From positions 20,737,208-20,801,207 of the forward strand of contig OZ038450.1 of assembly GCA_964036195.1 (NCBI GenBank): a DNA stretch of 64,000 bases. The letters run 5' to 3'. Source of the stretch: Sphaerolaimus hirsutus. Taxonomy: Eukaryota > Nematoda > Chromadorea > Monhysterida > Sphaerolaimidae. Under the pieces are notes generated by a model that searched no databases, was not told where the DNA came from, and was given only the letters and a program-made list of their open reading frames with translations. Positions 23,245 to 63,653 of the stretch are shown here, one piece after another. The stretch's first letter is position 1, and each line of letters opens with the position of its first letter. A program made the translations under genes and the position numbers.

Positions 23245-25625
23245 ATGGCAGCGCCCGAAAACATCCGACCACTCCCTTCCGACCTGGTGCGAATCCCGGA
23301 CCCTGTAAAATGTCAAATGTCGTGTCAAGTGTCAAAAGTGATTTGAAAATGCCCTGCGAAATGGCAAACGTGTTTGCCATTTTTCAGGGCATTTTACATG
23401 ACTTTTGACACTGCACGGCATTTGACATTTTACAGGATCTGGGACTGCCCCCTGGCCTGCGTGGGCACCGTGCTCGCGTGCACGGCGACGCATGGACTGC
23501 TCGGTGTGTGGTGCGGCGGAAGTCTGGTTACTGTGCTGTTTGACAGAGCAGCTGATCCGTTTGCTGCTTACGCTAGCCTGCCGTGAGTGTTGTTTGGGTT
23601 GAGAAGTTTTTTGTGCAATTATGATTTTTCTGTTGGTCAGATTCGCATTCCACTGATAATTGTGGACATTCAAGTGCAATGCCTACTGTCTCGGATCCTG
23701 AAATGACATTTTGCATTACATGTGCGGGACTGCCACTAGGGGCCACTCGGGCCCTGTAAAGATGCCATAGGTCATGTTAAACGTCATGAAGGGTGTCAAA
23801 CAAATAGTAAAATATAATTTTACATTTTACGTGACATTTGACACTGCATGACATTTCTCAGGGCATTTTATAAGTTCTGGGGTTTGCTGGCTCCAGATCG
23901 TTACTGCTCTTCAATTTCACAGGCGGCGCTACCAGCGCGACACGGCCGTGCTGTGCTACGCCATACGCTCCTCCAAGCGCATGCCCCCCGATCTGTTCGC
24001 CGATGGAAACCTGTCGGCCGACGTGTCGCCCACGGCCGACTACGTGGCCAGCGGCATGGTGCCGGCCGACCAGGCGCCCAGCGGGCCCGCCGTCGTGCTG
24101 CACTCGAAGCGCAAAACTGCAGTTGCGGTGCTCGGCACGAAGCGCGTCTGTTTGAGTGGCATTTAGGGCCCACATCACTAGTTGACATCAAAATTATTGT
24201 CAACTAAATTCAGCTAAATTTTGGTAAATCCACCGGTGTATGTGAGACAGTGGTCAACCAGTGTATGTGAGCCAGGGGTCTCCTAGATTTTGACCCTCCT
24301 GGGGATTGGATAGATAGCGGAGCGGTCTCCGGGATAGATAGATTTTTAGCTGGAAAAAATTATGGGGGTGAGGGTTGCGGGGGTCCGATATATAGGCTTT
24401 TTCAGGATTTTGAAGGAAGGAAAGGGCGAAAAATTGCTAAAAGTATGTGTAAAATAGCTCAAAATAAGTATACAAGAGCATATAGTTCTAAAAATAGCTG
24501 AAAATTGGTAAATAGGAACAAAAACCAGTGATTTGAGGTGAAAATCTTCAAAACGGTATGAAAAGTAGTTATTTTGAGCGAAAATTGGGGTATACCTAGT
24601 TTATCAAAAATCGCTCTAGGTAGGTAGATAGCTGGGCTATTTGGGGGGGGGGGATAAGGGGGTAGCCCAAAATTTTTCCTCCAGGATAGATCGATAGCTG
24701 AGCGGCCTCCGGGATAGATAGATAGCTGGGCGGTTTTGCGGGCGGTGTAACCCTCCAACCCCCCCCCCCCATTGAAGACCCCTGATGTGAGCCCTTAAAA
24801 ATGCGGTTTTACTTTAAAATGGATCGAAAACATGCTTATCGCAGGTGATCATCTCTCCAATCACGCGGGGCCCATATGGGAAGCGCTACGCGACCCTGCA
24901 GTCTGGCTTCGTGGACTTGGCCAAATTCTTGTCTGTCGGATGTGACCTTGAAAATGGCGTGCCGCCCAAATACTTCCTGCGCGCGATACCTGTCAACTGT
25001 TCTGGCTGCGTTCGCACCAGCGCGTTTCCCGAAACTGAGAGGTGGTTCGCGCTGGATTTGCTGCTTTCCAATGAATCCAGAATACACTTTGATGTGGAAA
25101 TTGAAAGTTCGTGTTGATTCTCGACTCATTTTTGACACTAGTCTGTGTCAACTCAGGTTTCGGCTTCACGTGTCGCTGAACGATTTTCCAATCCACTTTG
25201 GCGTAATATTTATTTTTCCACATTGCCACATGTGCATTTGGAGACACGTGAAGCCGAAATCTGAGTTGACACAGACCAGTTGACAACTAGTCTGCGGGCC
25301 GCGTTTTCATCATTTCTATCTTCTCCCAGGGCGCCGCTTTTCGAAGACAACAGACCCCCCCAATCAAGAGCCCTATCAGGATTTGCAGCAGCGACCGGAT
25401 ACCCTGTCAAGTTTGTCGTCGGGTGACGCGCCGCAGATTGACACAAAATTGATATTGAGTAAATTATTGGCGAACCCTGCGATGACAAACTTTGGTAACT
25501 TTCTGCGCGAGGCCAGGTGTGTTTTGGATGCAGATGAATTTGCGTTGTTGTCTGAACTTGCGTTTTCTGCTGGCAGCGAACTTAGCAACGATGATTTTAT
25601 GGGCCGATCTTTCGATGTTGTGTAG
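23245..25625 (+). CDS. Unrecognised five-exon gene, about 316 residues
   Basis: I do not recognise this protein. Exons 23245-23286, 23455-23582, 23923-24145, 24845-25106 and 25330-25625 join in one frame from an ATG (MAAPENIRPLPSDL) to a TAG. Codon use in exons 2-5 is GC-rich and unlike the flanking introns, which supports coding. Visible: a hydrophobic Gly/Cys/Leu-rich stretch near residues 15-45, a basic-aromatic segment, the block ISPITRGPYGKRYATLQ, an acidic Ser-rich C-terminal third and a possible helical end (NFLREARCVLDADEFALLSEL). There is no clear signal peptide or catalytic motif. Introns 1-4 contain, respectively, a family C element, another family C element, B plus G elements, and a B element. 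Intron 1 would have GT-TG ends. The end of exon 3 (CGC before GTCTGT) was chosen by phase and is uncertain. A polyadenylation signal lies at 25901. Confidence 0.6.
23287..23451 (+). mobile_element. Family C element forming intron 1 (GT-TG) of the 23-kb gene
   Basis: GTGCGAATCCCGGACCCTG to GGGACTGCCCC, flanked by CTG at 23284-23286 and 23452-23454. Removing element plus one CTG joins SDL to ACVGT in frame. Confidence 0.8.
23740..23885. mobile_element. Family C element
   Basis: Hairpin with GCCATAGGTCATG and GACATTTGACACT words in intron 2 of the 23-kb gene; ends decayed. Confidence 0.65.
24273..24784. mobile_element. Family G element with 8-bp duplication ATGTGAGC
   Basis: CAGGGGTCTCC to GAAGACCCCTG; exact ATGTGAGC at 24265-24272 and 24785-24792. 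GGATAGATAGATAGCTG words inside. Confidence 0.92.
25120..25310. mobile_element. Family B element
   Basis: Arms TCAACTCAGGTTTCGGCTTC / GAAGCCGAAATCTGAGTTGA in intron 4 of the 23-kb gene. Confidence 0.75.
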
Positions 25626-34390: not shown

Positions 34391-35494
34391 ATGCATCGAC
34401 TCGCACTTTTCATGGCCCTCATTTCGCTCATCGGTTGGCCCAACAAATCATTTTCAAATTCAAAATCCAACAAAAAATCCAATGGCTCTGCGCACTCTAG
34501 TTTTCACATGAAATTTCGAAGACTCACAAATGAGCTTTACACGTGTTTGAGTTTTCCACATTGACTCACTTTAAATCTCTGTCAACTGTAGTTGACGGAC
34601 ACCTCATTGTAGAAAACTCAAATGCATTTTGAGCTGATTTGTGACTTTTATCCCAATTTCGTGTGAAAACTAGTGTGCGCAGGTACAATGTGCCTACACA
34701 CTAGTTTTTCCCCTCACACCGTTGGAAAACTGAATTTTTTTCAAATGCAGATTAATCAACAGGGTTGAATGATTTTGTGTAATTTTAATGTGAATTTTTA
34801 AATCAATGAAAGGTTAAATTTGAAAATTTGAAAACTAAAACACATATAGCATACAATAAGAGTAGGCTGAATGTCGCCATGTCGCCATTTCAGTTTTCAC
34901 AGAAGTCACTGTGGAAACTAGCGTGCGCAATCACATTAAAACTCCACAACCCCCAAAACCCCCCCATCAGCCATCGCTTACTCAAACGAGGAGGTACCCC
35001 TCGAGCCCGTCGACGGCAGTTCCGAAGAGATCGAGGGCAGCGGCGTGGAGTCGTCGAGCGGCGCCGACACGAAGCCGCTCGTGTGCTCGGAGAAGGCCAT
35101 GCTGTGCACGTGCCCGGCGGACGTGAGCGCCGAGGACAAGGTGTGCGCCAGCGACGGGGTCAGCTACGATAGCAGGTGCCACCTGTGCTGCGCCAAGTAT
35201 GGAGAGAGACCGAACCCTCAGTTGGAGCTAGTTCATGATGGTTGGTGGGTGTGCTGGGGGTGCTCACGGACTCGTGAAAGGGTCTGCAAAATGTAAAATG
35301 TTTTAATGTCATGTCAAGTGTCGAACATCATGTAAAATATCCTGAAAAATGGCAAACGTGTTTACCATTTTACAGTGCATTTTACATGACTTGACATTTT
35401 ACACGGTGTGGGAGTGACACCTGGCGTCATGTTATATCTGGCGCGTTCAAACACGAAAAAATTTTTACTTTCGATCGCAGGGAAGTGCGAGTAG
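34391..35494 (+). CDS. Small secreted Kazal-domain protein
   Basis: Three exons, 34391-34499, 34971-35240 and 35481-35494, join in phase 1 at both junctions to 130 residues. Exon 1 encodes a signal peptide (MHRLALFMALISLIGW) and a Ser/Asn/Lys-rich linker. Exon 2 begins with an acidic segment with a Ser-Gly-Ser/Gly-Val-Glu pattern like a glycosaminoglycan attachment site, then a Kazal-type inhibitor fold with CTCPAD, VCASDGVSYDSRC and HLCCAKYGE. The last Kazal cysteine sits alone in a 14-bp terminal exon (Gly-Lys-Cys-Glu-stop), completing the C-terminal disulfide residue. It could be a protease inhibitor or a small matrix proteoglycan; targets cannot be read. A polyadenylation signal is at 35791. 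The first intron starts inside a family K element terminus. Confidence 0.8.
34494..34682. mobile_element. Family K element at the Kazal exon 1 donor
   Basis: CTAGTTTTCACA to TGTGAAAACTAG flanked by TGCGCA on both sides; its terminal GTTTTCAC supplies the donor of the Kazal gene. Confidence 0.75.
34691..34927. mobile_element. Family K short element (deletion derivative)
   Basis: TGCCTACACACTAGTTTTTC to GGAAACTAGCGTGCGCA; shares CTAAAACACATATAGCATAC and AATGTCGCCATGTCGCCATT with the 3.5-kb copy at 48751. Confidence 0.75.
35276..35420. mobile_element. Family C element in Kazal intron 2
   Basis: CTG-flanked hairpin; inner ends GTGCTCACGGACTC and GTGGGAGTGACAC. Confidence 0.7.
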
Positions 35495-37670
35495 CCTGAC
35501 GTTGCCAGTAAAAAATGATCGCGTCTTTCCGCACGACGATTCCTGAACAAATTGTACAGCCTCGATTTGTTTCGTTATTGTTGAGTGTTCATTTATCAGT
35601 TAATGTTCGGTCACTAATTAATATATTGATAATTACATTTTCTCGTTTATAAAATACGCATACTGGACTACTGGTAAAAATATTTACATAATTACTTATG
35701 TGCCTAACTCGATATGTTCAAGTGTCGTCGTTTAATTTTACTTGTAGTTATTCTTACCTTCGACAAATTTCTAAAACAATTATCGACGTGAATAAAGATA
35801 TTTTGACAAAATAAAAATAAGTTCGTGCCATAATAACACATGTAAAATACATGTAAGCGCAACAAAAACATTGATCAAGTCATTTGGCATAATATTTGTG
35901 CAATGAAAGCGTTGATATTTGCTAAATTACCATCTGGTAAATAGCAGCCTGGCACCCTGCAAAGTGTAAAATAAAATTTCACGTAAACTGTTAAGTACAA
36001 AAAAATAAAGGATTTTATTACTGAACATTTTGACATTTTGCATGGCACTTGACAAGTTTGTATGCAACTTGCATGACATTTTGACACTTGACTTTACACT
36101 TTACATCACCACGGCACCAGTATTTCAGATCACCCGATCTGGTAGTGTGAAGCCCATCAGTTGCACAGTAATGATTAGGGTCTGGTATTTTATTTACACT
36201 GACCCACAGGGCGAATCTTTTTGCAGTATGCGGCAACTCAGGCGCTACATTTTTCACAGTCACGTTCACGGATAAACAGAATGTTGGCAACGTTTTGGTA
36301 TTCGTATTGGCAAGGTATCCGTTTCAATCAGATATCTGTTTTAGTCAAAATAGCTTTTTATTTTCAGAATGTTTTTTTAAATAAATAAATACCGTATTTC
36401 CTCGAAATACCCCCCTTCAAATTACCCCCCCCCCCGCCCTCGAAATACCCCCAGGTGTTTTTGAGCTGGGGGAAAAATACCCCCTCGAATAAGCCCCCCT
36501 CGAAATACCCCCCCCCCTCAAAATTTCCACTCTGAAAAAATAAACCCCCTGGGGGTATTTCGAGGAAATACGGTATGTATTTATGTGAAATAAATATCTA
36601 TAGCCATCGGGTTACACTTCAAGCAAACTTCCCACAGCGATACGGATTGCCCATAAACCTTTCTATGAATGCATGTTAACCTATTTTGTGCGAAATATTT
36701 GCACTTTATTGAAGTTCTGAATTAGGTAGTCATATTCATTCTGGGCTTGACATGACATAAAAATGTGGCGCATAGATTGCCGCAAACTCTTTCTGACAAA
36801 AAGTTTATCGCACGCCGGTAGCCAGCGGCAATGGGTGTCATTTTATTGGTAGATGATGATCTTAATCGGGTGATTTGAATTTTGACCCACGTACGATTAT
36901 CAACAATGAGTAAGGCTTTAGCTCAGCACTATTTACCTACGTGTCCACTTAATTTTTAAAGCTTAGAACGGATTTGATACATTGCATCCCTTACCAAAAG
37001 CTAAGCAGCGTGAAACGGGAGGGCTGTAAGTGTGTGTTGCCAATTTATCACTACTTGATTTAACAAAAACGAACACTCGATCGACCATTATAATGGCAAG
37101 TGCAGAGGGCAGTGCTTCAAAATGTGTATACTTTTGAGCTCTAAGCACCAAACGGCGCCATTCTTAGTGTAAAACCGGAGTTACAGCACAACGACAAATA
37201 GGAGTTGTAGGGACAAATTCAGTGTCGACAAATTAAAAATACTCAAGAACGCTTAGAGATATACATCAACAAATAGACTTGTTGAAAACACTAATCGATA
37301 TCTACATCGTGTCCAAAAATTATCCAACAAGCTCCAGTTGTTCTCAAGGTATAAATCAAAATTAAAAATTTCGCTATTTGTTGGCAACATTTCTCGTTGG
37401 AATTGCCGACAAATAGCAAAAAAAATTAAATTTATATTTCGAAAACTACTTTAGCTTTTTGGATATTTTTGGACACGATGTAGATATAGGTTAGTGCTTT
37501 CAACATCTCAATTTGGGGATGGATATCTTCAAGCATTCTTGAGTATTTGTAATTTGTCGACGCTGATTTGTCGCTTCAGCTTCTATTTGTCGTCGGGCTG
37601 TAACTACGGCTCAAAGCCCATTATACGAAATACTAAACGACAGTATGAAAGAAAGAACGGCGGCCCACGG
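35495..37670. other. Intergenic region Kazal to ZP 3' end
   Basis: Family C element at about 35951-36118, family A element at 36391-36575, and a 440-bp inverted repeat at about 37170-37610 with arms ACAAATAGGAGTTG / TTGTCGACGCTGATTTGTCG. Nothing else recognised. Confidence 0.6.
35791..35796 (+). terminator. Polyadenylation signal after the Kazal gene
   Basis: AATAAA about 300 bp after the stop at 35494, with a T-rich stretch nearby. Confidence 0.45.
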
Positions 37671-40600
37671 TCACGGGGTCGGCGGCTGGAAAGCTCTGAG
37701 ACTGGGCAGCTTAACACCAACACTGGACGGCTTCGTGCTGCCGCCGCCCACTTGTCGCTGATTGTGTCGCTGCACGCTGGCCACGTGCGACTTGTCGCTG
37801 CACAACGTGTTGGTCGACTGGGCGAGTCGCCGGGTAGCGCGCAGCTGCATCATCAGGAAGGCGGTGATGGCGGCAAACAGCACCGCCAGGGGGCAGTCCC
37901 GGACCCTGTAAAGTGCCCTGGAAAATGTCAAATATCATGTAAAGTGCCAAAAGTCGTGTTGCCATTTTGCAGGGCATTTTACATGACTTTTGACACTTTG
38001 CATGACATTTGACATGTTACAGGGCATTTTACAGGGTCTGGGACTGGCACCAGGCCGATGGCGGACGCGAGCGCGATCGTCAGTCCGGTGGGCGCGCACG
38101 GTTTCGCGCGCATTGGACGCCGCCGCTGCGGCGATCCGCTTTGATCGTTGTTGCCGCCCGAGTACAAGGACGACCAGTAAGACAGCTCGTTCTTGTCAAA
38201 GAAACTGCCGGAGTTCTCCCATTGACGTAATTGCTCTGCGGTGTTTCGAGGTATGATTACGGAAATGACAAACAATGCCGATAACTCCCAGACTCTAAAA
38301 TGTCAAATGTCATGCAAAATGTCAAAAGACACGAAAAATTCCCTGTAAAAGGCAAATGTACGTTTGCCATATTACAGGGCATTCACATTACTTGCATGAA
38401 CACATTGCATGAAATATGACATTTTACAGGGCATTTTACAAGGTCCGGGAGTGACACCAAAGGATTCACCTTCTTGTGCAGCCGTATCCTGCGGCAGTTC
38501 GTCCGTGATGCGCACGTAGTCGTGCAGAGTTAACGCGCGCACGTCGCTGCCCCTGGCGGCCGCGTTCCCGTTAATGGGCAGCCCGTAGCCCGTGTCCATG
38601 TACGCGGGCATAGAGCGCAGTCGGCGCACCACTCGGTTACTGCTGCCCGGCGCTGGGCAGATTTCCTGCGGTCGCACACGATATTCATCCAGAGCTACTG
38701 AAGCACGCAAGCGCTTCAACACAGATTTCGGTTTCACATTTCGCAGAGCGATCTCCAAATGCACATGCGGCAATGTTGAAAAATAAAAGTTATGGCAAGT
38801 GCATTTGAAGATCGCTGTGCGTCAAGTGAAGCCAAAATCTGAGTTGACACAGACCAGTTGACTCATATGTGTCAACTAATGTATGAGTCAGCAATGACGC
38901 ACCTTGAATTCGCAGTCGTGGCACACGTCGACGGTGCAAGTGAAGTACACGTCGTTGGGGCCGGGGAACTTGAACGCGCTCATCCGGAAGTAGTACAGGG
39001 CGTCGCCGGTGGCCGTGCGCGCCCGCTGCATCCGACCGGCCACCTGCGGCCGCGCCGTGCACCTGCGCATGGAATTCATGCGGTTGTGAGTTAGATGAAT
39101 ACTGAAAAGCTGCTATAGTTATTGAATTTAATTTAGACTTCAGGAAATTCAGAAAATACTGTAGAGATATTGACTTAAGGATACTATATCATCGCAGTGG
39201 CAATCAATTATAAGGAAAGGAAAAAATTTATGCAAAATGCCAGGTAAAATGCAAAAGAATTTTTAACCCGACATTTTACACTTGTCACTCTAACAATTGT
39301 CAAAACTGTCTGGCTTTTCACATGACATGACAGTTTACATCGTATTGTTAGATGGTTGGATGTAGCCACTGCTTATTTTACCATCACCATCAATAGGGCA
39401 AACTATCGCTTCCCCAAATTATCTCCACTCACCCTCTCTCATCAATGAGCATGACACTCTGATGCCCAGTGCCATCCTTAGCAAAGCACGAGTGCACGAA
39501 TATGGAGTATCCAGCCTCAGTGCTCTGATCCACCGTACTATCCGCGCGCGCCGCCCTCACCACCAGCGTTATAACGTCGCCCTGGGGGCAGTCCCTGACC
39601 CTGTAAAATGCCCTGTAAAATGTCAAATGGCATGCAAAGTGGCAAAAGTCATGTAAAATGCCCTGCAAAATGGCAAACGTACGTTTGCCATTTTGCAGGG
39701 CATTTTACATGACTTTGGACACTTTGCGTGACATTTCACATTTTACAGGGCATTTTACAGGGTCCGGGATTGGCACCAGCTTGAGGGGGCTGTCGACGGG
39801 CGGGCGGTAGGGCCCCACACCGGACTGGATTTCCATGCGAACGTCGGCGGGGCGGTCGAGACTCGACTGAGTTACCACGATGCGCGTCGGCGTGATCGTT
39901 CTGATAGTGAGGGTCAGGATTGATGTTTGGTTGCGACTGTAGCTGCGCAGTCAAGTTTATATTTAATTTCTGTTGTAAATGACCTATTTCGATGTAATTC
40001 GACCCACGAATTATACGGCGAGCAAAATTTAGCATAACATATTATATCCACGAGAAATATGTACCTTTACTGTAATTCTATGATTTATCACCCATCGGGT
40101 CACGCTCCCCCTCGAATAATCCCATTTATATTTTCTGCTGGTAGAAAAAATGTACTTTGTCTACAGTATTTCTCGCTGTGAGTAAATTCTAAATACCGTA
40201 TTTGCTTGAATAATCGCCCTGGGGGATTATTATTTCGTCAGACTTTTTTGAGGGGGGTACTATTCGAGGGGGGGGGGAATCATTCAAGGGGGGAATTATT
40301 ATTTCGTCAAAATTTTCAAGCATGTTTGTATCAAATAGTTTCATGAATTATGCTTTATCAACACAATAATGTGCCATTTTTGTTCAAATTAGGCAAAACA
40401 AATTGATCAACTCACTTAAGGGGGGATTATTTAAGGGGGGAATTATTTTGTCGTCACTCGTCTTACAGGGGGGATTATTCGAGGGGGGAATTATTCAAGG
40501 GGGGAACTATTCAAGCAAATACGGTACATTATATTTTAATGCAATATATTTGCATAAAAATCAATTTTTAGAAAAAGGATTTAAACATTTGTTTCCACTT

Positions 40601-43197
40601 CTTTGCCACTGGTGCATGTCCAATTAGCCTGCTCGCAGAAAATCGTAAAGTTCCAAAGCCGCAGCTCTGTTCAATCTATGGGAGCAGGTGGTTTAAAAAA
40701 AAGCATTTGAATGCATACAAGAATGTTTCAGAAAGAAGTTCACTAAACCAGTGGATGTCTTTCCCACAATGAAATTTTTGTTCCTGGCAAAAAGATTGCC
40801 TTGTAGGCTTTTCTTGGACTTAAAATTTTCAGAATTCAGTGCCCATAATGGACTTAAATGCTTGCTTGTTTCAACAGAAGAAATTGGGGCAATATTAGGC
40901 TTATTGATTTCTTGCACAATTTTGGGTGGACTTATCAACTTTTTGCCTGACTTTTTGCAAATTTGTCAAAATATATCAGAGTGCAACACGTGATAAAATG
41001 GGCATATGACATTCAATGTTTTTGGGAAATGCTGAAAATGGGCGGGACAAACTGTAGATACCATTTCCGGGATTAATTAAATTTTCGATGTTTTGTACTT
41101 ATAGACTTTTGAAAGTGGTCGCCTCAAATCCAATCTTCAACAACCCACAACCCACTCAATAATAACAGTCTGCGCTGGCGTCACAGTAAATCGGTCGGTG
41201 AGACTGCCGAAGCGGGTATTGCTGCCGCCGCCGCCGCCGCCGCCAGAGATGCTGTTCGTGTCCACGTTGGTGTTGGTGTTGCCCGCGTCGATGGACGACG
41301 ATGCGAGCTCGCAGATGAACAGGAAGCGTCTGTCGTGCTCTGTTTGCGTGTCTTTGTCGTACTGCACGTAGACCTCGTTTTCCATTTTGGTTACTAGCTG
41401 CGGGTGGGTGAGTACTGTTTTAGTTAAATGTAAGGCCTGGTCAAGTGCCTCTGCCAGACCTTGTAAAATGCCCTGTAAAATGTTAAATAGGATGCAAACT
41501 CTCAAAAGCCAAGTAAAGTAGTTATGTAAAATATCAGATTCTCCTATACTTTTTCAATGGGCCAGTCCCGCAAACTATTAAATGTCATACAAATTGGCTA
41601 ACACGTTCGTTCATGACATGTAAAATGTAAAAGAAAAAAACTGGGCATTTACATTTTATGACATTGGACAAATTTGTGTGACACTTTTCAAGACATTGAT
41701 AAATTTGTCTGACAGTTTAGGCAAATTTTACTGGCTCGGAACTGGCACCAGATCGGCCTGCTTAAACCATTCGTGGTAACAACCGTCCCCTGTGTGAATA
41801 CCGTATTTCCTCGAAATACCCCCCCCACGAAATACCCCCCTCAAAATGGGCACTATGAATTTGTGATCAGGGAAATGCACAACAGACGTTTAAAACACTT
41901 ACTGTGTTATGTTAGAACATCGTTTATACCATCTACATCCTTATATAAGGCTGTAAAAACGTATAAATGGTGGTTATTGTTGCATTTTTCACGTTTTTCT
42001 CTCAAAATTTTCACTCTGAAAAAATAAACCCCCCGGGGGTAATTCGAGGAAATACGGTAGCTTACGTTTGCGCTGTTCCGCTGCACCTTGGTCCCGCATT
42101 TCAGGTTCGGTATGGAGAACATAACCATGTCCATGCTGTACGTGTTGTAATAAACGCAGTCGTGCTCGTGCGCGTAGTTTTGTGAGTAAATCTTGCCGAA
42201 AAATTCCTTGGCGAACATCAGCTGCACGGTGATGCCGTCGCCGGAGCACATGGCCGACACTTCTGCGCGTGGATATTTTTTTGCTCTACTTCATAGATAA
42301 TTTCTGTCAAGCGCTGGCTATCGGAAAGGATCATGCCATGTCTAAAAATTTGAAATTCCCAGTAAATTTTCAAGTGAAATTTAGTGAAGTGAAACTTTCA
42401 GTCTCATAAGCGCTGTGATCGAACCACTTCCGGAATCTGTCACTTGATGTGATTCGCGTAGGATTGGTACCAGGTGTCATATGTTCCAAATCGGTGATCA
42501 CATGCGGGAAAAGTTAAAATAACATTTTCTGTACTCGAGTACTTTCAAAAAGTAAAACGTAAAAGTGTCTACAGGTACTGTTTTAAAGGGGATACGCAAA
42601 AGCGAGTACAGAAACTTGTTTTCGGAGGCAACGTAAAGTATTCATTCAGTACTCGAGTAAACGTATTTTTCGAGTAAACGTAAATACATTTAAACAACTA
42701 TGTTACACCCAACACAACGAACCAGCAACCGCCGGAGTAAACATCTGCTCAGCGGGCTCAATCGGCGGCAGCGCGCCCGCCTCCCCCTGCTGCCCCCCAC
42801 TTTGCACCCCCTGACCCCCCTGTCCAGTAATTGCATTGGTACCCAACGGCGGGGGCGGGGGCGGCGGGGGCGGCGCTGTCAATGACGCCTGACCCAACGC
42901 TGTTGGCGCCATGGAGAGGGTTAATAAGGCGACCTGGGGGCACTCCCAGAGCCTGTAAAGTGCCCTGTAAAATGTCAAATGTCACGCAAAGCGTCAAAAG
43001 TCATGGAAATGCCCGGTAAAATGGCAAACGTACGTACGTTTGCCATTTTACCGGGCATTTTACGTGACTTTTGACGCTTTGCGTGACATATGACATTTTA
43101 CAGGGCATTTTACAGGCTCTGGGACTGGCACCAGTGAGATGGTAGTGAATGGGGATTGTTTTAGGGTAGTGAAAGTCCTTTCTAGCTGCCGCGGCAT
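37671..43197 (-). CDS. Zona pellucida (ZP) domain transmembrane protein, cuticlin-like
   Basis: Secreted or apical-membrane protein whose ZP domain polymerises into extracellular matrix. Exons in transcript order: 43197-43132, 42933-42723, 42262-42066, 41397-41152, 39866-39777, 39581-39433, 39062-38903, 38665-38458, 38235-38051, 37886-37671; all phases agree, about 575 residues. Seen: signal peptide with core ISLVALLTLSMAPTALG split by intron 1; Pro/Gly/Gln-rich linker; ZP-N with CSGDGITVQL and IPNLKCGT; ZP-C with MEIQSGVGPYRPP, GDVITLVV, HSCFAKDGTG, LIDERGC and VCHDC; an RxRR-like furin site (NRVVRRLRS); a transmembrane helix (LTIALASAIGL + AVLFAAITAFLMM) split by the last intron; short basic tail. 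Introns 1, 5 and 9 are exactly family C elements. The exon 5 start was chosen by phase and is uncertain. Confidence 0.88.
37890..38050 (-). mobile_element. Family C element forming the last ZP intron (GT-TG)
   Basis: On the minus strand GTGCCAGTCCCAGACCCTG to GGGACTGCCCC, flanked by CTG codons; it interrupts the transmembrane-helix coding sequence between IGL and AVL in phase 0. Confidence 0.88.
38285..38457 (-). mobile_element. Family C element at the donor of ZP intron 8
   Basis: The element's terminal GTGTCACTCCCGG is the donor; the acceptor (CACCGCAG) lies about 50 bp beyond the far end. Confidence 0.75.
38712..38890. mobile_element. Family B element in ZP intron 7
   Basis: CACATTTCGCAGAGCGATCT and GATCGCTGTGCG arms with ATCTGAGTTGACACAGACCA. 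Confidence 0.7.
39585..39776 (-). mobile_element. Family C element forming ZP intron 5 (GT-AG)
   Basis: Minus-strand intron 39776-39582 runs from GTGCCAATCCCGGACCCTG to GGGACTGCCCCCAG. Near-perfect hairpin with GCAAACGTACGTTTGC centre. Exons join LKL to GDV in phase 0. Confidence 0.92.
40195..40527. mobile_element. Family A variant (TACCGTATTTGCTTGAATAA)
   Basis: TA-flanked element in ZP intron 4 with GGGGGGATTATT words in place of the usual CCTCGAATA repeats. Confidence 0.75.
41452..42059. mobile_element. Family C and family A elements together in ZP intron 3
   Basis: C remnant at about 41452-41753 and TA-flanked A element at 41800-42059. Open frames between them are not needed: the exons join NSAN to LVTK in phase. 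Confidence 0.75.
42937..43131 (-). mobile_element. Family C element forming ZP intron 1 (GT-AG)
   Basis: Minus-strand intron 43131-42934 from GTGCCAGTCCCAGAGCCTG to GGGAGTGCCCCCAG, splitting the signal-peptide core between ISL and VAL in phase 0. Confidence 0.92.
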
Positions 43198-46100
43198 GGT
43201 ATTTTTCATCGAGTGAGGTCGATTTTTCTGCCCTTTCAGTGAATCTGGCGCAGCTTTTTTAGCGGTGTACACGGTGGCGGATGCGTTCGAACAGCTCGGC
43301 CAGTCGCAGCGGTCGCCAGTCGGCTGGCGGGTTTGCCGCGCGCCGCGACGCATATTAAATTAAGAATTCTGGGCGTGTGGGTGGGTTTTTTGTTTGTGTA
43401 TTGAGAGTAGGTGTCTAAAAATAGTGACTGCGGAATTATTCCTCAAAACTTCTCGACGTAATATAATGCGTCATGCAGGGCAACCCGGTTTTACTATAGA
43501 TTTCGGGCGAAGATTCCCAGGCATGCGCGGCGACGCGGGCCGCAGCGCAGCACCGGAAGTGTGATGCAATGCGTCAGTGCCCTTCAGCCTTGATTTGCGC
43601 GTTTCTCGCACGCGCAGATCTATAGTGATGAAATGTGGGCGCGCGCGCCACGGGGCGACAATCCACTACCTAGAGGTGACCGAAAAAGGACTTTCGGATG
43701 AAATATAGAAAGATAAAGTGGCTAAAGATAATGCAATGCAATCAATTGTCAGACTTCAAAAGGAACAGATGCCTATCTGGCTGCTGTGGTTTGAAAGCAT
43801 GGCGCAGTGCACCGCTGCCAGTCAAATACTTCAAACAAAGTTTGGCGCCAATCCCAGCGACAACGCCAAAAAAATGGCGTGGCGTGGCGCACTGAATGCC
43901 CGAGTGGCAATAAATTCATATCGGTGCTCACCTGGGACTGGGCAAGGAGGGGGACATGCATTCGTGAATCTGCTGCGCTGCGTAGAAACGCGTCAGTATC
44001 GAACCCGCTGGCACACAAGTGATTTCTGACGCAGCGTCTCCATGTCCATAGTTTGTGCATTACTTAGACATACGCATGGATATCACACACAAAACACAAT
44101 TGGTAGTCCAAGGGCAGATTGTATTGGATGGAAATACGTACCTATCTACCTATATACATAAATACATACATATTTATAGGTAAAAATAGACACAAATCTA
44201 AGGTAAATTTGAAGTCACATGAAAAAAGTGGAGAGGCACTCGATCACGCACGCGGAGTTGAGCACAGCGCATATTTGTTTATTGTTTTTCCATATCAATA
44301 CTAACAATGATAATAACTTTTTTGTTTACAGACAGAGGGGCGAGTTTGTGACCACTCGAATAAATCATCTGCTCAATTGTTTTTTTTTGTTTTATAATCA
44401 AATGAAGGGGCGATTTTCGAATTGGGCACAATTCACTAGGGGATTTCGATTCAAAAAATGCCGGAAGACGCCATTTGATGGCAGTCAGATATATCTGAAA
44501 ATGCAGTGCGGATTGAATGGATGGGTAGGAAATGATGCCTTTGTCATTTAGTCTTTGAAAAGACAAATCGGTCATTAAACTGCAGAAACGCTGCAAGTGT
44601 GCACGGCACTGCGCGCCATTTGTTTGAATATGACAAAGATGTCAGCTCGTTCCCGAATTTTTGTGTGTATCTTCCCTAATATGAAAAAGCTTGACCACCA
44701 TCGAAAGTCGACACCAGGAATATTTTTCTCTTTGAGATTTCACCGTATGTTCATGTACCAAAACCTTGAATTATGTATTTTGTCGCTACACAACAAAATT
44801 TATGTGAAAATAAAAGTTGACGCAGACAACGATGTGATATTTGACGAGGTTACTGCGTGCTATAACAGTTACTGTCTTGTCATATGACATCAAACAAATT
44901 ATATACCTGAATCGATCTTCGCCAAGTTAGGCCTACGGCAATAGCCAGGCTTGTAAATAGATCAATAAAATTGCCCCTGATTCATATAAAATCAACACGT
45001 CCACATGGGAATAATGCCAATACAACATCATTCGATATCAACACGCATCCGCGTTATCACCGCGCGTATTTTTTTGTCAACTCAACAAAGGTGAAATAAA
45101 TCTGGGTTGGTGCAGGTGCCGATATTGGTTTGCGAAGAAAATTTGCTGCGATACGAGGACACGTTCACGCTTGAGCTGTCCGCTTGAATAAATATTTTTT
45201 ACCTCGAAAAAATCTTAATGCAAAGTTGTCCTTGAGTTGTCATCGGATGGAGATGAGCACATATCGAGGCGACGTAAACATGTTGATATTTATGTTGTGA
45301 AAGTAAAAATATTTACAATAGAATAGACGGGCGGTAGTAGCCGCGGGGCAAATGTCAAACGTTGATGCGCCGAAAAACTTCATTATTCAAGGACAAGAAA
45401 AATAACGAATTAGAATGTGTTAGGCATAAATATATACCTACCCTCAAGTGAGTGAAGTGTGTCAAAAACGCCGAAAACGTTACCTCCGAGCGCGATTACG
45501 TGTGAACTGCGAACTAAGCTTCCTGCGCATGTTCTGGCTGCAGCACAGGTAGAGAGAGTTTCACGCGGCAGCGGCGGCACAAACTCCACGCAGTCGCCAA
45601 ACACGCGGCCACACATGACGCCGCAGTCCCCCACGGGCCGCACAATGGCCGCCCTTGCGTGTGCATCGCGGCCGCTCCCGTGGAAGCGCACAATGCCGCA
45701 CTGTAGGTACCGGACGGGCGCGCTGTTACTGTCGGCGTGTGCGCGCACAGCGCAGATTAACCTACTGGGGAAATGGCCGTGTTTTGATGCGACCGAATGA
45801 TGCCGCTGGTAATTGTTGTGCGTGCCGTCGCGTCCCGAATAAATAAATGTGTGGCCAATTTTCTTTTGGACCGTTTCTGATCGCAAAAACCGCACCCTCA
45901 CCGAGAAATTAGAGCCGGCTTTCAGGCTGCCAGCCTACTTACAGTCACTGTATTTACAGTGTGGAAGTCGACGATAAAAAATTATAACAATATAAAAACG
46001 ACGCGCGCGCGCATTCAGGCGGCACAGCCAGAAATGTGCAAGGTCAGCGCGGCACAGGTAAATAGATACAGTGCCGCGGGTGTACGCATTTGCAACTATT

Positions 46101-47261: not shown

Positions 47262-50200
47262 TCATAATGACTGGTTCAATCTGTTCACAATCTTATTCTT
47301 TGAGCAATTGCACTTGTGCTTCTGCGGTGCGCCCGGCTGCCCGCCGAGACACTCGTGTTGCACGGAATCCTGTGACATAAAAAATATTTGACATAATTTA
47401 TTTTTTCTGGTATAATATGAACATTTTTACACGACCAGATTCTATCTGACTTTACTTTTGAGCGCGGCTTTCTTATATTTTACTTTCATCGATAACAATG
47501 CAAAACTCGCACATCCTATTTGAAAATTCGAAGTAATATCCGGAGCCAGAAGTAGCGTTATATTAATTTAATCAGAAAAATATGACACGTAGACGATATC
47601 CACCCAGCGTCAGATTCGGGTTAGGAGGATATTCCAGAAAACTTTTAGGATTATTGCGAAAGTTTACTAGCTGGGCTGTTTTTTTCGGGTGAAAGCTCAT
47701 GTCAGTATTGAACCCTTCACAAGTCATGTAAATATACGGTGTGCTCGAAAGCATCCGCCATAGGAAAAAAAAAGTCTGCTTGTTCACCAATCCCTGGTCC
47801 AGTGTAGCGATGTAAGCGGTGACTTCGGCACCTCAACAAAATGACGCCAAGCGCCAGCCCGTGGCCGCGTCACATCATTACTCCCGGGCTGAGGACACTC
47901 CCAGACATTGTAAAACTTCAAACTTCAACTGCAAAGTGTCAAAAGCCACGTAAAATCACAAACGTACGTTTGCTATTTTACATGACCTTTGAGACACTTT
48001 GCATGACATTTAACATTTTACATGGTCCAGCACATTCACGCACCTCATAGACTGGCGGAGGCTCGGTGCCGGCGGCGGCGGCGGTGTCCACGGGCGGCGG
48101 TCTGGGGTGGCCGGCAGACATGCACGTGTTGTAGTCGGGCGGGCGGGCGCGGTCCGCCAGTTGCGCAGAGAGACTGTCGCGCGACGCTACTGCGGGTGGA
48201 CTTTGGGTAGTGAATGTGTGGATGATAGAGTATTGGCAGCCTACCGGCAACTGTGGTGGTGACGCACTGCACCCGGTTGTGGTGCAGGTAAATCTTTCTG
48301 TAGACCACGTAGCAACCCAGTATGCACATGATGCATGTGACCACTAGTAGCACCAGAATCCTGCACAAATGCGAATATAATTTCGGGTGGAAGTACCATT
48401 TTCAATTCGAAATATTCAAGCGCCACCTCACCAAATGAACCATCTGGCATATTTCAATGGTCTCCCTTTAGCACCATTCAATAGGCAGCATCCAGTGGGA
48501 CAGCACTGTGCCGGTGGCCAGCATCTGTACAACCAGAAAAAAACGGGATTGAGCGCTAAAATGGGAGATGTCTCGAAAATCACACCCATTGATCGGAAAG
48601 GTAACATAGTAATGACCACTATGAATTTATTAGCCCCCCCCCCTCGAAAGACCTCCCCCCAAGTTGAGTGTACAGAGAACGTACATACATAACAAAACTG
48701 CGGTTTGTGATTAATGCAAAACACATTAAAAACAATGAATTGTTACATTGTGCCTACACACACTAGTTTTCACCGTGACTTCGTGTGAAAACTGAAATTT
48801 TTTCAAATGCAAATTAATGAATACGGTTGACTGATGTTGTTTTATTTTAATTGGAAATTAAATTAATGGAAGTTAAAATTTAAAAATTTGAAAACTAAAA
48901 CACATATAGCATACAAAAAGAGTAGGTGTCATGAATTTTCACCGGCTGCTTTTTACTCAACCAAATTCCACTATGGCAAACTGCCAAGTTTTACCGATCT
49001 CACACCTACTCGTTGGATGAGCGACAAAGTAAGGCAACGGAAAAGCGACTACCGATTGAATTCGCAACGCACAATGGTGAATCCACCGAAGTGAATGTCA
49101 CAGGTGTACGCTACGTCAATTAAGTTAGCTTTTTAGCGAATGGCGTTTTTATCAACGCACTAGCAATTAGTTGAATGTCTAATTTACACCAAGGGGTCCG
49201 AAGTTTTTTAGAAGAGATTTTATTTTAGACGATTTTAGACTCAGAATTCACACATTCAGATAGAACACAGGGAACACACTGAGAGCAAGTTTCTAACCAG
49301 CGGCACAAAACCTTCGAAAATACTCCAAGAAATAAAACCGAAGCAATTTCGACTGAATCGACCCCTACTCTAAATTACGGTACGCTTTTATACGCAACAA
49401 CATAAGCCAAGTCCAGACAACACTTCCACATACCACGAGGAGCATGCTTACAGCCGATTTGACGGACACACGGAATTTGAAAATGGGCATACCTTAAATG
49501 ATTCACGGCGTCAGTTTACAGTAGGGTGTAAAAAATTTTTTTTTACGGAAAACGGAAACGGAAACAGAAAAATTATTTCAGCAGCCGGAAAACGGAACGG
49601 AAAACGGAAAAAAATTTGCACTTGGCGGAAAACGGAAACGGAAACAGAAAAAAAATTTCAGCGGCCGGAAAACGGAAAAAAAGGCCAGAAAAACGGAAAC
49701 GGAAAAATCAAATTTGCACGGAAATGGAAAAACTTGCTGAAATTTTGCCGGAAAATGGATAAAATTTTCTGAAATTTTGCTGGAAGTGGGAAAAATTTGC
49801 AGTAATTTTGCTGGAAACAGAAAATTTTTCACATGATTGACAATCTGCATGAATTTTTACCAGTTTGGCTGATCAGAAAACAGAAAGTTGAGCCAGAAAA
49901 GGGTAAAATGAGGCGGAAAAATGGAAAATTGAGGCGAAAAATGGAAAAAAAGCGGAAAAACTGGAAATTGAGGCGGAAAACGGAAAAAAAGGCGGAAAAA
50001 CTGAAAATTGAGCCGGAAAACGGAAAATGAGCCGGAAAAACGGAAACGGAAAAAAAAGTTGCCGGAAAACGGAACGGAAAACAGAAAAAAAATTTCAGCA
50101 GCCGGAAAACGGAACGGAAAACGGAAAAAATTTGCCTGCGGAAAACGGAAAACGGAAATTTGACACCCTAGTTTACAGGATATGTCGATCAAAGTACACA

Positions 50201-53107: not shown

Positions 53108-55717
53108 TTTTTATTTATGCATGACATTCGACAGAGAACAGCTATGCGAATGCCGCATAATGGGCATGGCGTGCAGAAAACTGCAGTAGAACGTTATACA
53201 TGCGCGGTGTGTTGCCATGGGCGCACTTCTTTTGTTTTGGATGCACATGTTTTTGGGTAGTGATGTGAAAGCGCCAGAATTTTGGCGCCGAGCACTATGG
53301 CGCTTTTCATGGGCATGGCGCCAAGCGCCACAGCAAAATAGCGCCTAGCGCCATGGTGCTTTTTGCTTTGGCGCCAGCGCAATGGCGCTTTTACATTACT
53401 ACACATGGGCCAACATGTGCTGTGCCTGTTGGTGCCAGCACACTACTGCCCCATAAACCGCGGATGCACATATTTGAGCCACTTCTAATTTGGTATCGAG
53501 CACATCATCATTTTATGGATGTGTATGTTACAAGTAGGGCAGATCCCGTTAGCAGTTTCGCGGAACTAGATTCAAGATGCCAGGGGCAGTCCCGCACCCT
53601 GTAATGTGTCAGAGTCAAGTGTCAAATGACTTTGATCAAAATAAAACAAATTTTCTTTATTACTGAAACTTTGCAATTTTGCGCGACAATATGAATTTGA
53701 CAGTTGACTTTACACATCAGGTGCGGGTTTGGCATCAGAAGTCTGGGTTGAGATATTTCTAGATTAGTTTTTCTTTTTGTCTGCATTCCACACATTGAAA
53801 AAGCCTGTCACCCCCACCCGAAAAGTGAAATCTTTCCAGCTATCTAACCCCCTGTAGGAGTGTTTTACTGTGCAAATCTACAAGCATTTTGATGTTCGGA
53901 CTTCTGGGCAGTAACTATTTATCAATGAAAACAGATAACCATCGAATATTTATTAACATCCAAACGGCACTTTTCAGAAAACTCCTGTACCTAAAAGACT
54001 GACGAGTTGCTAAGTATCACGTAACACATGTTTCCAGTACTTGGTGCAGGTATGCTAATTCAATTTACATGTATTTGGGCCCATGACTAAGAGTGTAACC
54101 AGTAGACAAATAAAAAAAAGCATGCGCGTAGACAATATCAGAGCATTGTAAGTGTAAAATGCAGATACAACTAAAACCCACATGTTTCCCAATACCCACA
54201 GACAAAAGTGTACTACCATTAATATTCATCAATTAGGTTCTATTTACCTTTTATTTATGACGAATTCACAATGTTAAACACGGTTTTTCCTAAATGTCCT
54301 CTACCTGCACATAGGGTTCAAACGGGATTGACTTTTCGGGATCGGGATTCACTTTTTGAGATTTCGGGATCGGGATCGGGATTGGGGTTTCGGGATCGGG
54401 ATTGGGGTTTCGGGATCGGGATTGGTTTTTTGAGATTTCGGGATCGGGATCGGGATCGGCCGGGATTGGGGTCACGGGATCGGGATTTGCATTTTTCCGG
54501 GATCGGGATTGGGTTCTAGGGATAGAGATTTTGGCCATTTTTCTGGCATTCACAGTTGTTCATAAAGGTCTCAAAACACTGTTGGATGCCAGAAAAGTGA
54601 CATAAAATTGACGCTGGGGTTTGCCTGCATGCAAAAACGTCATTATTTCACTTTTTACAGTTTCCACTAATTTTTCCGGGATCGGGATCCCGGACTTGGG
54701 AGTTTCTCGGGATCGGGATTTGAACATTTTCGGGATCGGGATTGGTATTTTTGGATTTCGGGATCGGGATTGGGGTTTCGGGATCGGGATCGGGACTGGT
54801 AAATCCCGGAATTTCACGGGATTCGGGATCGGGATCCCGTTTGAACCCTACCTGCACACGAGTCTTAACGAAATGGTATGGTAAATAAATACTGTGTATG
54901 TGGAAATATGTACTTTGGTAAAAATAGGTACCGTAAATATTAATTCCACCAAATAATGCATCAGGCTTTTTTGTAGGTTTCAGCGACCAGCATGTGATTC
55001 TAAAAACTAAATAGTTTTCTAATAACGGTATAGAATAGAGAATAACAGAACCTTCGCATGTGATTAAGTAATCGCCATTGTGTTCCAACCATTTTATGGT
55101 CAACTTTTAAACAGGGTATAATTTCAGGCCCGCTGCACTATTCGATGAAATACGGTATCTAACACGGTTGTACCAATTACTCAAATAAGCGAAAACCCGT
55201 ACAGAGACACATTAACGTCAGACAGAATGTAAAATGCGGGGTTTTTAAAGGGAGGAAACACCGTTGCGCAGAAGCCGACGCACAATACTAACCAAACGCT
55301 ACGAAAAAGCGCCATGATTAGGTAGCATCAGTGGAGGAAATCGTGTTATGCAGGGGTATCCAAGATTTAGACCCCCGGGGGTTGGATAGATAGCAAATCG
55401 CTCCTCTGGAGGGATAGACAGCTGAACATTTTTTCTCTCAATATTTCAAAATTTTGCTTTCGGGATAAATAGATAGCTGAGCGACCTCCGAGATGTATAG
55501 ATAGCTGGGCGGACCGTGGGAGAGGTTTACCCCCGTTACGCCTGGTGTGATGCATTTGTGCTTAAAGCGTAAGAAATAGTAAATCACCCACTGACATTAC
55601 CGCATATTCAGTCGGATAAAGCACAGCCAACAAGAACCCCACGGGCATCCCACAAATAATAAAAAACACAAAATTAACACAAAAATCGAATAAATAAATA
55701 GTTGAATGACCAGATAA
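53108..55717. other. Intergenic region between VOPP1-like start and TFIIB end
   Basis: Holds a family F element (about 53258-53404), a family C element (53584-53735, CAG-flanked), a family E element and a family G remnant (about 55350-55552). Promoter of the VOPP1-like gene should lie at about 53110-53250. Confidence 0.6.
54312..54850. mobile_element. Family E hAT-like (GGGATC)n element
   Basis: Close relative of the TTC21B intron element; TAGGGTTCAAACGGGAT ends and exact 8-bp duplications CCTGCACA (54304-54311, 54851-54858). Confidence 0.95.
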
Positions 55718-58700
55718 TCAGGACATTGGCAAACGAGCGATGGGAACGATAAAATTGAAATTATCTGGAAACAGCTGCTGAGCAGACGGCAGCAGCAGTT
55801 TGTAAGTGTTCTTAACGGTTGTTTCGGCCGCCCCGGCTATTTCTCCGATTTCTGCGAGATATGGTACGCTACTGTATCAATTTAAAAACTAAAAACGGAG
55901 CCAGGGGGGCAGTCCCGTACCCTGTAAAGTCAAGTGTTAAATTTCATGTAAAATGTTTTTCACAAAAAAGAAAGATTACATTTAGATACTTTGTATGACA
56001 ATGAGAAATTGAATGACATTCTGGAATTTTCAGGGTGCGGGACTGGCACCTGGTGAGAGGACCAGACATAATTCTGGGCCCCATAATCGAAATTTGCAAA
56101 GACAAAAGAATTTTTGACCATCATTGAGAAAATTAAGTCAAATTTGAACTATTCCAGGACGTTAAATTTGAATTCAACACTTGAACACACTAACCTTTAG
56201 CACTTTTATTCATGTTGAGTGCCAAGCTAGCCAAATAAATGGCGGCCGCAGCGACAGAAATCGGACTGCGGCCGGGCACGCAGTCCAGTTCGAATGCCTT
56301 CTTCGCTATGTGTGTCGCTGCGGTGGGGTGAACATAAAAAGTCAAGTGAAGTGAGTGACAAACTTGATACGAACATGACTTGAATACGAAATCAAAATAG
56401 ACCTAGTCGGTCCAATGGTGCTGCGCACACTAGTAGGCCACCTAAATTTGGGAAACTCGTAAATCTGTTTTGAACACATTTGAGTTTACGAGAATGAGGA
56501 CTCTGTCAACTACTGTTAATGACAATCAAATATAATTCATTCTGATAAACTCAAATGTGTACAGAACAGATTTATGAGTTTCATGAAATATCAGTGGTCT
56601 ACTACCTAGTGTGCAATGCCACAATCGCCCAGTAGCGATTCCGTGTTTTTACATATCTCCGTATTTTTACATATCTTTATTTTTTCTACTTTTTCTATAT
56701 CTTTCTACTTTTCTACAAATTTGGACGCGCAAATCAACCACCAACAGAAGTTTACACAAATCCCGAATCACCCTACCAGTTAATTGCAGCTGCCTGGCGC
56801 CATGGGGATCCAATGACAAGTTCGAACAAAATCGGGACATAAAATCCACGCTGGTGAGATGGTCCAAACTGGTCTCCAAAGCTTTCAAAATGAGTTTGAA
56901 GCAACGACCAATTTCCTTTTTAGACACTTGCTGTGAAATGGCACATATTTCCTTGAACGAACGCGGCACCTGCAATATTGGGGATAATCATTGTTATTGA
57001 AAATGATAGCGAGATTATCCTTTCCAGAGTGCAAAAGAAAAGTTTTGTAAACTTTACCAACTCTACGGAAAAGAAACGTAAAAAATTCGAGAATTTAATT
57101 ACGGAAAAGAAACGTTTTTTCCATCAATTTTTCTGAAAATATATCAGGTTTCAATAAGAAATATAAAATATGTTGGAACGGCGAATGAACATCTAATGAT
57201 GCATGCAGCAGCGCCATTTTCTTCACAATGAACCACTGCTTAGATAACCACAACTGAAATTGCTTACAACCATAAGTACCAGACATTCTTATTTTTCTTA
57301 TCATGCTACATTGTTTTTTATCATAACCACTTTGACTTCATTCATCAAAATACGGTAAAATTATCCTGCCAAAATGGATTCCATCACTATACTGACCTGT
57401 TCCTTCCTGCACGCAATGTAAAGACAGGCGGCGGCGACGGCGGATGGATTCTTCCCTTTGAGTTGTTTCGTTTCCAGCACATCCTTGTAAATCCTCGCCG
57501 CCTGATCTTGTATGGAACGGGGCAGGTGCACTCGCTCGGACATTTCGCGGATTACACCCATAGCCTGGGAGAAATGGGGGATGTTGGAAAGGGTGCAATG
57601 TGTAGGGTTTTTTAAGGTGGTGAAAAAAGCAGAAAAATGAAAAAATCGCTACAATAGAGGGAAAATAACTAATAAATAGGTGAAAAATGGCAAAAAGAAT
57701 GACAATTTGAGCGTTTGAGCGAAAATTAGGAGAAAATGTCTCAACACTAGCTTCAGGTGCCGGTTCCGCAAATTGAGAAGTGAGAAGTAAAATGACAAAA
57801 GCTAAATAAAATTGCAAAAGTGAAGTGCAGTGGCAAATAAATTGGCAAAAGCGAAGTAGAAAAATAAAAATAAAAAGTGATTTCCCTACGCTTTTGCCAT
57901 TTCACTTCGCATTTGCCATTTTACTTCTCACTTCTCAATTTGCGGAACTGGCCCCAGATATTTAGATTTAGAGCCGGCAGTTTTCGGGGGTGAAGGGGGT
58001 TCCGGTGCTGAAATTCCCCCATCACACCTGCATGAGTGCTCTGTCGGTGCTGTTGACAGTTCTGCGCTGCAGTTTCGCCACGCCCCAGTCCGAGCTGCCC
58101 GGCCCGGCCGCAATCGACGTGGATAAATCGCCACTCGATAGCAGCGAATTTTCTGGCGCACCTGCACGGTAATGGATTGTTGGTTGTATTTTATACGTAT
58201 GTAAACATCACGGTACTCTGCGAGTTTTGGTACACAGCATTCGAAGGTTTTTTTAGGTTCGCAAGTAATGAAATAGTGTTTTAAAAAGTGTTCTTAACAG
58301 TTCGAACACGGAAAGTACCTTCTAGTAATGTATTCTGCCATTGTGTATATGATAAAATATCATTCAGCGGCAGTGTTGAAACTACTATCGTGCGTGGGAA
58401 AACACACAGACAACGTGCTCCATCACACGCGTAGAGATGCTACATACAATTCACAAGACTAGCGTATGGAATTTTATTTATTTTGCGAATGTCTTGTCTT
58501 GGTTATGGTTACTTATATACTACAACGAAACACAAGCCTTGGGAACCTTTTGGCTTTTCTGTCATTACGTCTATTGTATTGGAATAGTTTATGACATATG
58601 AATTTAGATTCTACCATAATTTAATGAAAAAAACCTTATGGTTGATTTAGTAGTTAATTATGCCATAGAAAAAAACGAAATATTATGAAGAAATAACTGA

Positions 58701-60967: not shown

Positions 60968-61569
60968 CTGATATGAAAAGTCGCTGTCAGTAGGTAAGAG
61001 TGGAAACAAGGCTATAGTTGAAGCTTCTTCTATAGCCGACAACGCCAAAAGGCAAAAACGATTATAAGAAATAGTTTTTCCACAAAATGCATCTGGGCAG
61101 CAACTAAAAAGCATCGACGGAGAAGTCCAGTAATTAGGGGTAAACGGGCAATTGACATTGAAAAAATTAGGAAAATGGTGGAAAAAGTGCGAGGCCAATT
61201 TTAGGTGCCATTTCCTTGCTTAATGAACTTAATTTTCGAATTTTGGACTGATCGACTTTTAGAAGTGTACGCCTCAATCGTTACACAAGAATTTGAATTG
61301 AAATATGTATCACTATATTTTCCAGGTCTTCTGTTTCCAGTCGATTGCGCGAAGGCTTCACTTCCGACAATCCAACGGAAGCGCGCAGCGTCTGGCATCA
61401 AAACTTGCATCACCAGTTTTCCTTGCAACCATGGCCCAATTCTGAATTCGTTTACTGAACATGTCTCATCACTACACCACTATTCCAAACCTTATTGATT
61501 GGTGAGTTTGTTTGACATTGCGCTGACGTGTATATTTATAAGCTCTGAGGTTTCGGCAGTTCTGGTGCT

Positions 61570-61703
61570 GCTGCCACACCCTGCAAAAATCGCTGTAAAA
61601 TGTCAATTGTCATGAAAACTGTCAAAAGCCATGTGAAATGTCAAAAAATTTTTTTTACTGTTTGTTTGACATTTTGAATGACTTGACACTGCCTGACATT
61701 TGA
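61570..61703. mobile_element. Family C fragment
   Basis: ACACCCTGCAAAAATCGCTG start and GACACTGCCTGACATTTGAC end; joins the outer G element. Confidence 0.6.
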
Positions 61704-63449: not shown

Positions 63450-63653
63450 GGCCCACACACTAGTTGACACAGGTGTGTCAACTGGTCTGTGTCAACTCAG
63501 ATTTCAGCTGCTTGTGTCGCAGAGCGATCTTCCAATGCACTTGCCGTAATGTTTATTTTACAACATTGCCGCGTGTGCATTTTCGACACAGGTACACTAA
63601 ATCTGAGTTGACACAGACAAGTTGACACACCAGTGCCAACTAGTGTGCTGGCG
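63450..63653. mobile_element. Family B element
   Basis: CCCACACACTAGTTGACAC to GCCAACTAGTGTG with GAGCGATCTTCCAATGCAC inside; in the intron after the last recognised exon. Confidence 0.75.

Follow-up and report, generated by a model that had tools for sequence, protein, structure and literature searches.

Introners, i.e., transposable elements that create introns, are known, and the conversion of an element into an intron has rarely been reported in animals. A stretch of 64,000 nucleotides from the nematode Sphaerolaimus hirsutus (GenBank assembly GCA_964036195.1, contig OZ038450.1, positions 20,737,208 to 20,801,207 of the forward strand; in the following called the window, with positions counted from its first letter) raises the question whether such conversions have taken place there: a gene of the ZP/cuticlin type contains three introns that consist of nothing but a hairpin-forming repeat, named family C, plus a terminal CWG (W = A or T), and the same repeat interrupts a second open reading frame (ORF), T2, in the same manner. 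Judged from the sequence, hairpin transposons seem to have landed in coding exons and to have become introns from end to end. Family C is probably a miniature inverted-repeat transposable element (MITE) similar to NuwaI and would serve as an introner when inserted in sense orientation at a coding CWG.

The preliminary description of this locus had proposed that introns 1, 5, and 9 of the ZP gene each represent one family C element, and this was borne out at exactly the coordinates it gave (Table 1): apart from the terminal CWG, not a single non-element base is situated between element and exon. All three also lie, as it had claimed, in phase 0 directly behind a CTG codon for leucine; since 19 of the 33 CTG triplets in the ZP coding sequence and 9 of the 15 in that of T2 are in frame 0 anyway, this position is weak evidence, and the argument was dropped. 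The first intron of T2 constitutes a fourth exact case. Here the element interrupts the ORF after CTG, between MAAPENIRPLPSDL and ACVGTVLACTATHGLLGVW, and its removal together with that of the GT-AG intron 2 yields a complete ORF of 414 nt from ATG to TAG.

In each of the four cases, retention of the element leads to a stop codon within it, and exact excision restores the ORF in this test on the sequence. The restored signal-peptide core of the ZP protein reaches a hydropathy of 2.26 (12 residues), the transmembrane segment at intron 9 one of 2.39 (19 residues), and the hydrophobic segment of T2 one of 1.67. The claim that removal rebuilds protein domains stands for the signal-peptide core and the transmembrane segment; concerning the ZP-C strand at intron 5, the Pfam match for ZP-C begins at residue 285 and does not cover the junction, which is situated earlier, at residue 269. 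The exon borders of the ZP gene were set by reading frame and domain logic, that between exons 4 and 5 being a guess. The 570 codons of the ten-exon model contain no internal stop, and the product matches Zona_pellucida (1.1e-09), CUT_N (1e-08), and CUT_C (4.3e-07) in Pfam; when solved structures were searched with the ZP region, 12 matches resulted, all of them weak, including several to linkers of single-chain variable fragments (scFv) and one to ZP3 (E = 0.62), and this search was not used. The Pfam scan of the T2 product gave no match, such that its status as a gene rests on the frame, on the hydrophobic segment, and on the GC content at third codon positions (0.77, as in the ZP coding sequence).

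An origin as introners is supported by this exact fit, seen in four coding exons that belong to two genes, by the lack of leftover intron sequence, and by the CWG flanks that exonic and non-exonic copies have in common (see below). The lack of leftover sequence also bears on the possibility that old introns were colonised, the element having entered an existing intron whose remainder was later lost. Some family C copies do lie within ordinary introns (those beginning at 38281, 41441, 19654, and 23740 in Table 1), but none of the four exact cases retains any non-element intron base, and the CWG at their junctions is the one also seen at copies elsewhere, which makes colonisation very unlikely.

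Family C was delimited by a profile built from the three exonic copies of the ZP gene, which recognised 20 loci of the window with an E value of 1 or below; two weak loci (23658-23743 and 39198-39365) were dropped and two adjacent ones (41437-41557 and 41555-41754) were merged, leaving 17 usable copies. Pairwise identity among the four exonic copies from the two genes is 84.7-91.3%. As a pattern with three mismatches allowed, the 5' terminus matched 20 times in the window (either arm can match), compared with a mean of 0.48 in shuffled sequence, and the 3' terminus 19 times, compared with 0.30; in collections of viral and of bacterial/archaeal contigs there were 0 matches, which is little informative, as these collections contain no animals. 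GT stands at the start of 15 of the 17 copies (GTG in 14), and the opposite, C-rich end, read inward, begins with GG in 12/17, with GGG in 10/17, and with GT in 1/17. The asymmetry of the ends claimed beforehand, with GT on one side and a C-rich stretch on the other, is hence a trait of the whole family. Of the 17 copies, 14 are preceded by a CWG on the 5' side, 11 are followed by one on the 3' side, and 10 possess it on both, at a background of 3.1%; among the 13 non-exonic copies, against the same background, the corresponding figures are 10 on the 5' side and 7 on the 3' side. The 5' flank is CTG in all four exonic copies, and the 3' flank is CAG in two of them. All four exact copies are in sense orientation, and three of the seven other copies that can be placed in or beside an ORF are antisense; the copies beginning at 35937, 53584, 55905, 57757, and 61565 were assigned to no gene.

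The most probable origin of the introns is as follows. Family C would be a non-autonomous hairpin DNA transposon with CWG as its target, NuwaI-like and belonging to the PIF/Harbinger-related PHIS superfamily, and its insertion would duplicate the CWG. One terminus would bring GT as a ready donor, while the other, a run of C, would be extended to CAG or CTG by the duplicated CWG, such that after a sense insertion in a coding CWG the intron would take its GT from the element and its last three bases from the target duplication; removal of the element would give back the original exon. A CAG target would lead to GT-AG immediately. A CTG target, as in all four clear cases, would lead to GT-TG first, and one T-to-A transversion in the downstream copy, possibly under selection, would then produce GT-AG, as in introns 1 and 5; the CAG found at the 3' side of two exonic copies lies in the direction that selection for an acceptor would predict. 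At the base of the near-perfect hairpin, donor and acceptor would come to lie next to each other in unpaired form, while the stem would hold the upstream AG.

Concerning the 3' ends, which had been described as WG throughout, introns 1 and 5 indeed end in AG (GT-AG, with flanks CTG/CAG), whereas intron 9 ends in TG and is hence not a GT-AG intron; the same holds for T2 (both GT-TG, with CTG/CTG). When the junction was shifted within the repeated CTG of intron 9 and T2, no GT-AG, GC-AG, or AT-AC solution was found. An AG situated 19 nt before the intron end would, if used, shift the frame in all four cases, and introns 1 and 5 contain additional AGs at distances of 9 and 13 nt from the 3' end. 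The next AG downstream of intron 9 is in frame, but with its use the transmembrane segment would be partly lost (best 19-residue hydropathy 1.40 vs. 2.39); the downstream AG tried for T2 results in an early stop. The presence of AG at all 11 ordinary acceptors was rejected as evidence because these introns were delimited by seeking GT-AG; the count is circular and shows only that such solutions exist.

Several points weigh against the proposed origin. Intron 9 and T2, half of the exact copies, possess no AG acceptor, so that canonical splicing accounts for only two; the reading of the elements as introners, as put forward initially, is in this respect only partly supported, but it is the best-supported one. 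The two arms are 92% and 91% identical in introns 1 and 5, 84% in T2, and 79% in intron 9; the copies ending in TG hence look no younger, which counts against the simplest story of maturation. All counts on the 17 copies go back to a profile for which three of the exonic copies had served as the seed. No transposase with family C ends was found in the window, which was not searched systematically for one; Pfam gave no match for nine unassigned ORFs of the window, and no autonomous partner with a DDE transposase and a Myb/SANT ORF was identified there. Finally, W is identical at both ends in 6 of the 10 copies with two-sided CWG, no better than chance, and because of this level of agreement the flanks alone do not prove a duplication of CWG. 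W agrees in the two non-exonic copies nearest to the consensus, at 19.7 kb (88%, CTG/CTG) and 35.3 kb (84%, CAG/CAG); among decayed non-exonic copies, it agrees at 53.6 and 57.8 kb and differs at 35.9 and 55.9 kb (64 and 69%).

This last point would fit an alternative in which CTG...CWG belong to the element itself, at its outer margins, instead of being a duplicated target, every insertion then adding a leucine codon. The constant CTG on the 5' side of the exonic copies is in line with it, and an addition of codons by introners has been described (PMC9860276, legend of Fig. 2F). It is nevertheless quite unlikely: three non-exonic copies (at 35.3, 55.9, and 57.8 kb) possess a CAG as their 5' flank, a G follows the 3' CWG in 6 of 10 cases, as expected for a CWGG target, and CWG duplications of NuwaI with empty sites have been published (PMC4482050). 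Phase 0 in all four cases, 1 in 81 under random phase, also speaks against it, subject to the frame bias of CTG given above.

As for the hairpin, the predicted RNA folds lie 14.6 (intron 9), 17.5 (T2), and 20.2 (intron 5) standard deviations below those of dinucleotide shuffles; the fold of intron 1 was computed without shuffles. The hairpins of the four exonic copies comprise around 65-85 pairs. At their base, two to four nucleotides at the start and six or seven at the end are unpaired, and the AG situated 19 nt upstream of the intron end lies within the predicted stem in all four. In fold energy per nucleotide, the exonic copies are the top four of the 17, which may reflect youth, selection for the hairpin, or both, the two not being separable. 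Relative to intron 1, changes on both sides of the stem number 4 in intron 5, 3 in intron 9, and 4 in T2, and broken pairs number 6, 5, and 4, respectively; such compensatory changes were not counted as a sign of selection at the RNA level because similarity of the arms can be maintained in a palindrome by other routes.

Paired inverted repeats trigger SOS splicing. The CTG/CTG copies (intron 9 and T2), perhaps young exonic copies generally, might be cut out of the mRNA by excision of this type instead of ordinary splicing, with the ends joined by RTCB, and introns 1 and 5 would then be copies that turned spliceosomal later. The hairpins far stabler than shuffles (z of -14.6 and -17.5) and the lack of a GT-AG solution sparing the protein are compatible with this. 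SOS splicing in animals is described in a review (PMC13247085), and excision of an inverted-repeat DNA transposon from exon RNA would yield the same product. We consider it unlikely, as exact single-base junctions are not a known property of the SOS pathway, and the 5' GT, kept in 15 of the 17 copies, would be unneeded for excision by the hairpin alone; this fixed GT and the AG present at the ends of introns 1 and 5 point to the spliceosome.

A minor possibility is that, of the four, only introns 1 and 5 are real, whereas the elements at the intron 9 and T2 sites are recent insertions that break alleles or pseudogenes in the sequenced animal. An exact end without AG and the stop upon retention would be expected in this case; both ORFs are, however, otherwise intact over their entire length, and the two copies have diverged from the consensus (94% identity for intron 9 and 91% for T2) and from each other (87%), such that a brand-new insertion is unlikely. 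The GT-TG copies may represent either an intermediate stage, with the hairpin assisting their removal, or alleles that are broken. It is conceivable, if doubtful, that introns are born here in two steps, a hairpin in a CTG codon being tolerated at first through its removal from the mRNA, by SOS-like excision or by hairpin-assisted use of TG, and a T-to-A change then turning it into an ordinary GT-AG intron. If so, a single gene would show both stages, with TG at intron 9 and AG at introns 1 and 5. With three exact element-introns in one gene and a fourth in another, and with an apparently immature GT-TG and a mature GT-AG state one base apart, the locus bears on how an exonic transposon that does not yet possess a proper 3' splice site is tolerated and on whether hairpin-guided removal feeds the gain of introns.

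Introners with terminal inverted repeats and target duplications have been described by Gozashti et al. in 2022 and reportedly by Huff et al. in 2016, and a later introner survey reportedly deals with horizontal transfer. The survey of 2022 (PMC9860276, available parts) covered 3,325 eukaryotic genomes and reports 548 families from 175 of them; within animals and land plants, introners turned up in no more than two groups, both of them animals. The families include introners with terminal inverted repeats and target duplications, some with a 5' site of their own and a 3' site supplied by the target. The organization of family C is similar to these in that a non-autonomous transposon forms the whole intron, the splice sites are split between element and target, and the length of the spliced product would be unchanged. 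It differs in the CWG target, in the hairpin over the full length, and in the TG end of half of the exact copies; the term Harbinger is absent from the main text of that survey.

NuwaI, a group of the PIF/Harbinger-related PHIS superfamily, is defined by CWG target duplications and occurs in 16 animal genomes (PMC4482050, available parts). Family C shares with it the CWG flanks and the animal host. The terminal inverted repeats of NuwaI usually start with GGG; the C-rich end of family C does so in 10/17 copies, and its other end starts with GTG (14/17) instead. Furthermore, nearly the entire family C element is palindromic, no transposase or Myb/SANT ORF was seen here, and the available parts of the NuwaI paper mention no creation of introns. 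Hairpin introners with non-canonical ends of many types and with inverted repeats of 8-20 nt are described for the dinoflagellate Amoebophrya (PMC7789003, in part); there, too, inverted repeats join the exon ends and short direct repeats form the borders, whereas the four exonic copies of family C possess around 65-85 pairs and fixed GT...WG ends. Concerning TG acceptors, 36 human introns are listed in the part of PMC2374985 available, always as an alternative to an AG within 28 nt. GT...TG with an AG nearby, here 19 nt upstream, is found in intron 9 and T2 as well; unlike in the human introns, use of that AG would shift the frame in both genes, and it lies in the predicted stem. An introner of the CWG/PIF-Harbinger-related class and the TG state were not found in the open-licence literature searched, an absence of little weight. 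The novelty claimed in the preliminary description would thus concern the class of element, introners with terminal inverted repeats and target duplications and hairpin introners having been published already.

Table 1. Family C copies and the genes that contain them in the 64-kb window; flanks are given as 5'/3' triplets.
Feature	Position	Strand	Flanks	Remarks
ZP/cuticlin-type gene	37671..43209	-		ten-exon model, 570 residues; Pfam Zona_pellucida, CUT_N, CUT_C
ZP intron 1	42934..43131	-	CTG/CAG	family C element + terminal CAG; 198 nt, GT-AG; exon-side CTG 43132-43134
ZP intron 5	39582..39776	-	CTG/CAG	family C element + terminal CAG; 195 nt, GT-AG; exon-side CTG 39777-39779
ZP intron 9	37887..38050	-	CTG/CTG	family C element + terminal CTG; 164 nt, GT-TG; exon-side CTG 38051-38053
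T2 gene	23245..24166	+		414-nt ORF, 137 residues; exons 23245-23286, 23455-23582, 23923-24166
T2 intron 1	23287..23454	+	CTG/CTG	fourth exact element-intron; GT-TG; exon-side CTG 23284-23286, terminal CTG 23452-23454
Possible older fifth element-intron (tentative)	47889..48043	-		in PPxY-type ORF
Family C copy	38281..38457	-		within ZP intron 8 (38236-38469); ends off the splice sites
Composite/decayed family C copy	41441..41748	-		within ZP intron 3 (41398-42065); two merged profile matches; ends off the splice sites
Family C copy	19654..19823	-	CTG/CTG	antisense in intron of HIBCH-like gene
Decayed family C copy	23740..23893	-		antisense in T2 intron 2 (23583-23922)
Family C copy	22993..23144	+	CTG/CCG	~100 bp upstream of T2 ATG
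Family C copy	35257..35420	-	CAG/CAG	antisense, directly downstream of Kazal-domain ORF
Decayed family C copy	6463..6602	+		in short intron of LANCL-like ORF, assigned by eye
Decayed family C copy	53584..53735	-	CTG/CTG	
Decayed family C copy	55905..56049	-	CAG/CTG	
Divergent family C-like copy	57757..57954	+	CAG/CAG	
Decayed family C copy	35937..36117	-	CTG/CAG	
Decayed family C copy	61565..61721	+		3' end ill-defined

The tentative fifth element-intron follows exonic GAG, reads GTGCGTGA...TCCTCAG, and is followed by exonic CCC; near its ORF, in another frame, a transmembrane-like stretch exhibits a sub-threshold Pfam match to Commissureless (E = 0.049). In the LANCL-like ORF, the family C copy takes up around 140 of some 180 nt of the intron, which is situated between YTGVAG and VAWMYW; this intron may go back to an old introner, its splice sites having since shifted outward. 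A further family C terminus (CTAGTGGCAGTCCCGCA) at 23723-23740 adjoins the antisense copy in T2 intron 2 and perhaps belongs to a truncated tandem copy.

Besides family C, the window contains other hairpins. That at 14958-15127 (83% arm identity) exhibits a weak match to the family C terminus but possesses a different interior. Others are situated at 16746-16944, 25137-25280, 34488-34682, 38716-38847, and 63456-63647, several of them with stretches similar to TAGTTGACACAG or CTGTGTCAACT; one of these lies in ZP intron 7, its ends not coinciding with those of the intron. A separate repeat, which contains CCCCCC tracts and possesses ends similar to ACCGTATTTCCTCGAA, is found at 40240-40540, 41800-42060, and 52259-52589, also within ZP introns 3 and 4.
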